Positions 35,357 to 36,973 of a DNA stretch of 64,000 bases are shown here, in pieces. The translations under genes and the position numbers were made by a program. Position 1 is the first letter of the stretch. The number at the start of each line of letters is the position of its first letter. The DNA is taken from NCBI GenBank assembly GCA_951828515.1, contig OX639992.1, positions 3,698,217-3,762,216 on the forward strand. Direction: 5' to 3'. The DNA is from an uncultured Poribacteria bacterium (lineage in GTDB: Bacteria > Poribacteria > WGA-4E > WGA-3G). The notes beneath the pieces were generated by a model, which saw only the letters and a list, made by a program, of their open reading frames with translations, searched no databases and had not been told where the DNA came from.

Positions 35357-35407
35357 GACACAACACAGCGAATGTATCCTACAAAAAATTCAGAAGGAGT
35401 TGACAGA

Positions 35408-36247
35408 ATGATGGAAACCTACAAAGGGTACGAAAATCCACAACTGGTTATCTCTGCTGAGGAATTGAAAGGCACACTCGACGATCAGACGTTCTGCATC
35501 GTTGATACGCGACCGACGTATGAATATATCCGCGGACATATTCCCGGCGCACTTCATTTAGATTTGTTCGGTTTAAGCCTCATTGATACTCGGAAAGAGA
35601 CGTTTGATGCCTTTATGTGGATGATAGCATACCTATTTCAGCAACGCGGTCTCGATCCGAGTAAACCGATTGTATGGTATGAAGATATATCGGGAACGCG
35701 CGCTTCCCGCGGGTTTTGGTTTTGTGAGTATTTAGGACATCCCGAAACCCGTCTATTGGATGGTGGTTTCAAGGCGTGGCTATCGGCAAATGGACCTGTT
35801 AGTACTGCAGGTGCTGAGCCACCGGAGGTTCCACCTTTTCCGATAAATGCCCAACACGATATACACATGGATGCTGATGTGATTCGGGTCCTGTTAAACC
35901 GAAGCGACTTTGTTCCTCTTGATACACGCACCGACGATGAACATTACGGCAGGATTGCTCGCGCAGAACGGGCAGGTGCCATTCCGGGCTCTATCCACAT
36001 TGAATGGCTCAATAATCTTGACGAAGCAGGGGCATTCAAACCTGCTAACGAACTCAGAGAGATGTATGAAGCCGTCGGTATTACACCGGACAAACAGGTA
36101 ATGTGCTACTGACAGGGCGGATACCGCTCTTCCCAAGCCTATTTGGCGTTGCGGCTCTTGGGTTATCCAAAGGTCAGCAACTACATAGGCTCGTGGAAAG
36201 AGTGGGGAGACCGGCTGGATCTGCCGGTTGAGATTCCACACGCTTAG
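35408..36247 (+). CDS. Two-domain rhodanese with in-frame TGA at the catalytic cysteine (candidate selenoprotein)
   Basis: Thiosulfate/3-mercaptopyruvate sulfurtransferase of 279 residues if TGA 36110-36112 is read through. The N-terminal rhodanese domain (IVDTRPTYEYIRGHIPGALHLD) is the inactive one. The C-terminal domain (PLDTRTDDEHYG...GAIPGSIHIEWLN) reaches VMCY, then TGA, then QGGYRSSQAYLALRLLGYPKV and ends PVEIPHA-TAG. Family members have YCQGGxRS here, so TGA replaces exactly the persulfide-forming cysteine (residue 235). A hairpin suited to a bacterial SECIS follows. TGA is used as a normal stop elsewhere in the window. The start is ATG 35408 with AAGGAG eight bases upstream. The alternative is a nonsense mutation. 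Confidence 0.8.
36113..36162 (+). promoter_or_regulatory. Candidate bacterial SECIS element
   Basis: Directly after the TGA, CCAA (36133-36136), loop GCCTAT and TTGG (36143-36146) form an apical hairpin whose loop begins with G, about 24 nt from the UGA. CCGC (36124-36127)/GCGG (36151-36154) can extend the stem. An alternative outer stem is CCCAAG/CTTGGG (36132-36137/36157-36162). Confidence 0.5.
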
Positions 36248-36250
36248 TGG

Positions 36251-36973
36251 TTACGGCACACGAAGTGTGTCTACTACTTTAGCGACTTCAGCAGGGCATT
36301 CATGCGGGAGGTAATGTCCGGCGTTGGGTATCCATACCCACTGAATATTCGGGTTGGGCGGAATGCGCAACTTTTGCTCAGTTAAATCATTCCGTCCCAT
36401 ACCACCAAAGACTTCACAGATAGGGATGCATGCCTGCTCAAGGTAGGCGTAGGCATCGAAATTTTTTACAGACTCCCAGAAATCGTGCCAAATTTCGGAT
36501 TCAAAGCGGTTTCTCGTCTCTTTTGCTTTCTGCTGAATCTGCGCAATAGCAACTTCGGGGAGTGAACCGTAGAACCGTCCAGTGTCGAAAGCACTGCCCG
36601 CAGATGAAAGACTCGTCCATCCCTCCAGCAGCACAAGTCCAACAACACGCGATGAACGTCTGGCGACTTCCATCGCTACCATACCCCCCAGACTATGACC
36701 AACAATCACCAAGTTTTCTACGCGCAAATTGTCTGAGAGGTATAACACATCATCAGCAAGGCTACCTAACGTAAATGGTTTTGTGGGAACAGTACTCCGT
36801 CCATGTCCACGAAAATCGAGAGCGATACAACGTTGTTCGTACGGTAATTTTTTAATCGTCCGTGTCCAATCCGATGCGTCACATCCAGTGCCGTGTAAGA
36901 AAAGCAGCGACTGTCCCAATCCTCCTGAATCAAAGTAAGCCATCTCTCCCCAACAGGTTGCGATTGTTGCCAT
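36251..36973 (-). CDS. Alpha/beta-hydrolase
   Basis: A 240-residue serine hydrolase fold. The oxyanion motif is LFLHGTGCDASDW, the DFRGHGRS loop follows, and the nucleophile elbow is VGHSLGGMVA. The catalytic histidine is in NAGHYLPHECP near the C-terminus. The acid is probably the Asp in GMGRND. There is no signal peptide. It converges on the rhodanese gene with only 3 bp between stop codons. The substrate is unknown. Confidence 0.88.
   Translation of the reverse strand: MATIATCWGEMAYFDSGGLGQSLLFLHGTGCDASDWTRTIKKLPYEQRCIALDFRGHGRSTVPTKPFTLGSLADDVLYLSDNLRVENLVIVGHSLGGMVAMEVARRSSRVVGLVLLEGWTSLSSAGSAFDTGRFYGSLPEVAIAQIQQKAKETRNRFESEIWHDFWESVKNFDAYAYLEQACIPICEVFGGMGRNDLTEQKLRIPPNPNIQWVWIPNAGHYLPHECPAEVAKVVDTLRVP

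Follow-up and report, generated by a model that had tools for sequence, protein, structure and literature searches.

A probable selenocysteine-containing rhodanese of Poribacteria with a candidate distal SECIS hairpin bridged by a long-range RNA helix

The TGA at positions 36110–36112 (forward strand) is almost certainly a selenocysteine (Sec) codon and marks the catalytic residue of a two-domain rhodanese, as judged from comparative sequence analysis. The RNA that follows this codon is predicted to fold into a long-range helix (P1) and a distal hairpin (P3), and is a candidate SECIS element of unusual spacing. All positions refer to the window, the 64-kb stretch of DNA that was analysed (3698217–3762216 of a 5.85-Mb single-contig genome). 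The closest named relatives of the source genome are all Candidatus Poribacteria metagenome-assembled genomes, which we take to be mostly sponge-derived.

The rhodanese gene and its in-frame TGA

The rhodanese gene (35408–36247, forward strand) encodes 279 amino acids including Sec235 when TGA is translated as Sec, and ends with a TAG stop codon at 36245–36247. The open reading frame opens at 35372; ATG 35408 is the probable start, the orthologues align from this codon, and a Shine-Dalgarno-like sequence, AGAAGGAG (35392–35399, forward strand), is located 8 nt before it. A profile search detected PF00581 in two stretches (E=1.1e-36, 125.7 bits), with the catalytic residue in the second, as in two-domain rhodaneses of COG2897. 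The closest solved structures by sequence are Azotobacter vinelandii RhdA (1e0c, E 3.6e-39) and the rhodanese of Thermus thermophilus (1uar), and the TGA aligns with the catalytic Cys of both. It is preceded by Tyr and followed by QGGYRSS, a stretch that corresponds to the catalytic-Cys region CQTHHRS of RhdA, so that the persulfide position proposed for the TGA in the original prediction is borne out. The AlphaFold model (mean pLDDT 88) displays a two-domain TST fold, and its top Foldseek matches are TST/MST-type rhodaneses. The protein scored below the curated cut-off of the 3-mercaptopyruvate sulfurtransferase equivalog NF008557 (95.9 bits, cut-off 250) and below those of two NCBIfam rhodanese selenoprotein models, NF041203 (LYCAU; 35.1 bits, cut-off 115) and NF045694 (TsoB; 24 bits, cut-off 805). 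The same genome also encodes a distant Cys paralogue, with 28% identity and the loop CRIGERSS. A CxU redox motif, with Cys at −2, was considered and rejected: one genus from this order has Ser there but retains Sec, and the Cys orthologues carry Cys at −2 as well, so that this residue is not a Sec-linked resolving Cys.

Among 85 Poribacteria genomes, 70 contain a close full-length orthologue. The codon at the catalytic position is TGA in 67 of these, a recurrence well beyond chance, and TGC, TGC and TGT in the other three. Thus, an in-frame TGA stands opposite a catalytic Cys in homologues and is kept in relatives, which is the pattern used to recognize bacterial selenoproteins. Translation confirms that the frame continues beyond the TGA for 44 conserved residues, as predicted from the single sequence, before reaching the TAG. 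For the codon and RNA comparisons, 66 distinct Sec genes and the three Cys orthologues were used. Mean amino-acid identity in the Sec genes is 93% after the TGA versus 77% before it, and the nucleotide variation after the TGA is concentrated at third codon positions; these alignments indicate that the downstream residues are under protein-level constraint. Seen in one sequence only, a TGA would normally stop translation, and the gene might then be read as a pseudogene that arose by nonsense mutation or sequencing error. The same TGA recurs, however, in 67 of 70 species genomes that were assembled separately and come from several families, and the Sec machinery is in place (see below). Because both the TGA and the downstream frame are conserved, this explanation, which the original prediction had tied to a TGA confined to a single strain, can be discarded with near certainty. 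A second TGA in the genes of genomes G036 and G039 proved to be a stop codon upstream of the start. Viral contigs contained no relatives, and plasmids only homologues of less than 60% identity.

The three sense-codon orthologues (L103, L104 and L105, in genomes G040, G037 and G042) all belong to one family, f3, of the same order. SelB scored over the cut-off in two of these genomes (G037 and G040) and all three contain a TGA-containing SelD; therefore, the f3 genomes are Sec users with Cys in the rhodanese. The gene tree gives no direction for the exchange between Sec and Cys (loss in f3 versus gain elsewhere), because the outgroups are too distant.

A search for selA, selB, selD and tRNA-Sec, which had been suggested as a check, found all four over their cut-offs in the source genome, which accordingly has a complete Sec decoding machinery. 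The tRNA-Sec (78 bits, cut-off 47) has the anticodon UCA and lies directly after selB; SelA, SelB and SelD scored 594, 347 and 359 bits respectively. The SelD gene (L164, G000:C1:4977731-4978654) has its own in-frame TGA and encodes a selenoprotein; the same holds for nearly every poribacterial genome searched. Insertion of another amino acid at the UGA (Cys, Trp or other) is highly improbable in view of the dedicated tRNA-Sec, SelA, SelB and SelD, the Cys that every Cys orthologue and the aligned proteins of known structure have at this position, and an RNA fold that is confined to the TGA genes.

Conserved RNA structure downstream of the UGA

Synonymous diversity relative to expectation is 0.43 in codons +1 to +16 and 0.38 in codons +29 to +41, compared with 0.79 upstream of the TGA. 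The second dip coincides with hairpin P3, and the near-invariant codons TAC(+4), TCT(+6), AAA(+29), CGG(+34), CTG(+35), GAT(+36) and CCG(+38) are all located inside P1, P3 or the P3 loop. An antisense open reading frame was rejected as the cause of the codon constraint, as it also spans unconstrained codons just upstream of the TGA. The codons that flank the UGA, TAC (36107–36109) and CAG (36113–36115), each occur in 97% or more of the distinct Sec genes and lie outside P1 and P3; their constancy possibly reflects the UGA context or an alternative hairpin at +2 to +18.

The whole alignment was scanned for helices with a minimum length of 5 bp in which every pair is canonical in at least 97% of sequences. 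Downstream of the UGA, the scan returned P1 (8 bp), P3 (7 bp) and one 5-bp match, such that P1 and P3 alone reach 6 bp. At the same threshold, it gave no helix of this minimum length across the 720 nt that precede the TGA. This upstream region of the same alignment served as the control, the strict null with one codon per column being non-discriminating for helix length. The 5′ strand of P1, CCGCUCUU (36124–36131, forward strand; +12 to +19 after the UGA), pairs with the 3′ strand, AAGAGUGG (36198–36205, forward strand; +86 to +93), with the consensus CCGYUCUU and AAGARUGG, respectively. All eight pairs are canonical in every one of the 66 distinct Sec genes. The 66 nt of coding sequence between the two P1 strands (36132–36197, forward strand) are predicted from the mean base-pair probabilities of the 66 sequences to form a less conserved rod, with 88% of cells paired. 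P3 (36209–36229, forward strand; +97 to +117) starts 3 nt beyond the 3′ strand of P1 and has the sequence GACCGGC-UGGAUCU-GCCGGUU, with the loop at 36216–36222; 99.6% of its cells are paired. The consensus, GAYCGGC-UGGAUYU-GCCGRUY, consists of a 7-bp stem and a near-invariant 7-nt loop (UGGAUYU), with a consensus energy of about −14 kcal/mol.

Both helices contain compensatory changes. The P1 pair +15/+90 is CG in 49 sequences, UA in 13 and UG in 4, and the P3 pair +99/+115 is CG in 57 and UA in 9, a double change from C-G to U-A. Cells changed on both sides of a pair number 22, compared with 4.7 in shuffles, although most P1 and P3 pairs are invariant and each double change may stand for few independent events. 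The pairing of P1 is partly forced by conserved amino acids; the Cys orthologues, too, can form up to 6 of its 8 pairs.

Alignment-free folding placed P3 in the predicted minimum free energy (MFE) structures of all 66 Sec genes and P1 in 53 of 66; P1 is also found in all 66 once the first 8–11 nt, which a ribosome halted at the UGA would cover, are masked. The pairing probability of P3 is 0.97 in the Sec genes versus 0–0.19 in the three Cys orthologues, for which that of P1 is 0.0. Compared with synonymous recodings, the MFE of the region +10 to +126 has a mean z of −4.7 over the 66 Sec genes (−0.9 in one weak case, L149) and an upstream control window has −0.15; the Cys orthologues have z values of +0.5, +0.8 and −0.3 for +9 to +126. 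Since the Cys orthologues show ordinary stability and lose P1 and P3, the RNA fold appears to go with the TGA, in a comparison with three Cys orthologues of one family.

P3 has no further copy in the genome in a genome-wide search; it is thus not a genomic repeat, and no second selenoprotein gene backs it. It was also rejected as an intrinsic terminator, as it has no U-run and no terminator signature. P3 lies just before the junction at which the rhodanese gene and a convergent alpha/beta hydrolase gene end about 3 bases apart (36247–36251).

Identity of the SECIS element and proposed decoding

The published bacterial SECIS (bSECIS) model specifies a G-containing small loop, with 16–37 nt from the UGA to the apical loop (PMC13188914). 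The conservation pattern described above favors, on balance, the P1/P3 fold as the SECIS of the rhodanese gene, with distal P3 as the candidate for SelB binding. When a UGA occupies the A site, the mRNA enters the ribosome at about 12 nt after it. The base of P1 would sit at this entry point while Sec is inserted at UGA 36110 by SelB and Sec-tRNA, and P1 would loop out the 66-nt segment, setting P3 beside the decoding ribosome. Along the sequence, the P3 loop (start +104) is 103 nt from the UGA; with the middle segment removed by P1, and only if P1 forms, the effective spacing would shrink to 11+3+7 = 21 nt, which falls within the canonical range. Recognition of P3 by SelB is suggested by its near-invariant loop, with G at position 2 and another G after it, and by the strong stem. 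The prospects are about even that the element represents a new bacterial SECIS architecture, in which the SelB hairpin is located ~100 nt downstream of the UGA, within the coding sequence near its 3′ end, and a conserved long-range helix brings it to the ribosome by looping out the codons in between.

Alternatively, the Sec rhodanese may use a conventional UGA-proximal SECIS within ~45 nt, with P3 serving a different purpose, for instance in mRNA stability or regulation; we regard this as possible, if rather less than an even prospect. SelD of the same genomes speaks for it: its Sec codon was located by alignment, and its SECIS in Poribacteria is an ordinary proximal hairpin that fits the published model (e.g. 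GCUC-CGGGU-GAGC, loop at ~17 nt), which means that the local SelB needs no distant SECIS. Synonymous constraint is also strong in codons −1 to +16, and loops with G as the first base occur at 24 or 35 nt in some sequences. Across the rhodanese genes, however, there is no conserved G-loop hairpin at 16–37 nt, and P3 has no terminator signature that would supply such a purpose. The hairpin originally predicted as the SECIS, CCAA-GCCUAU-UUGG with a G-first loop ~24 nt after the UGA, is present in the source sequence but is not conserved: 82% of its cells pair, a level that the null reaches in ~21% of trials, and G is the first loop base in only 24 of 62 distinct sequences. A further proximal hairpin, AGGGCGG-NUA-CCGYUCU (+2 to +18), is 98% paired versus 60–61% expected, yet it has a mean probability of 0.07 and is found in 9 of 66 MFE structures, its loop (+9 to +11) mostly lacks G, and the hairpin would sit inside the ribosome. 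As P1 gives a better account of its 3′ strand, this hairpin was dropped as the SECIS, and the P1/P3 fold remains the preferred reading.

Function and comparison with known systems

The gene product is most likely, by analogy, an RhdA/TST-like sulfurtransferase in which the catalytic Cys is replaced by Sec, shuttling sulfane sulfur via a Sec-bound persulfide-type intermediate. In catalysis, Sec235 would take up a sulfane sulfur atom (or selenium), forming a persulfide-type (or diselenide-type) intermediate, and then transfer it to an acceptor. A role in selenium handling is possible, because RhdA/TST proteins can bind and carry selenium as perselenide, according to PMC9369223 (citing Melino 2003). 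The genome neighborhood offers no clear functional clue: upstream is a putative MATE-like transporter that is kept in many relatives, and downstream are a putative alpha/beta hydrolase, an amidohydrolase and a MoeA-like gene, all named from reading their sequences.

RhdA and 1uar share 31–32% identity with the poribacterial protein and match its model with a TM score of ~0.8, and the RhdA loop C-Q-x-x-x-R corresponds to U-Q-G-G-Y-R. In contrast to RhdA, the poribacterial enzyme has Sec for Cys (UQGGYR versus CQTHHR) and would give Se-S/Se-Se chemistry. A phylum-wide Sec sulfurtransferase, together with close Cys orthologues in Sec-using relatives, would be a natural pair for studying the role of selenium in persulfide chemistry.

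Sec-containing rhodaneses, called rare in the original prediction, have precedents. The first cited here, a COG2897 (SseA) Sec-rhodanese of the Sargasso Sea, was published in 2005 (PMC1088965) and was found again in the GOS data (PMC2398784); the family is listed in 2022 and 2026 reviews (PMC9312934, PMC13188914), the latter with five rhodanese-domain selenoprotein forms, including ‘form 4, UxxG’ (representative MCY3690685.1). The poribacterial protein is likewise an SseA-group rhodanese with Sec, and its U-Q-G-G fits the listed UxxG. With this Sec-rhodanese family on record since 2005, the protein adds a new lineage to an already described group of selenoproteins; it differs from the earlier reports in that the gene was traced across a whole phylum together with its RNA signal. 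Literature searches turned up no report of selenoproteins in Poribacteria. Nor did any of the titles and abstracts searched, largely those of open-access papers, describe a distant or long-range SECIS in bacteria.

The 2026 review notes that some genes fail the bSECIS model and may form distinct classes (PMC13188914). SECIS-based finders of bacterial selenoproteins scan 16–37 nt after the UGA and would miss a SECIS bridged over 100 nt. P3 resembles the canonical bSECIS (E. coli fdhF type) in its 7-bp stem, its 7-nt loop in which positions 2 and 3 are both G, and its strong stability. It differs in that its loop lies 103 nt after the UGA instead of 16–37 nt, outside the published spacing, such that the long-range helix is needed; the distal bridged element thus departs from the published spacing rule. 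If the proposed architecture is correct, bacterial SelB is able to use an RNA signal whose parts are brought together from separate segments, and the distinction from the SECIS elements of archaea and eukaryotes, which are often distant (3′ UTR), would become less sharp.
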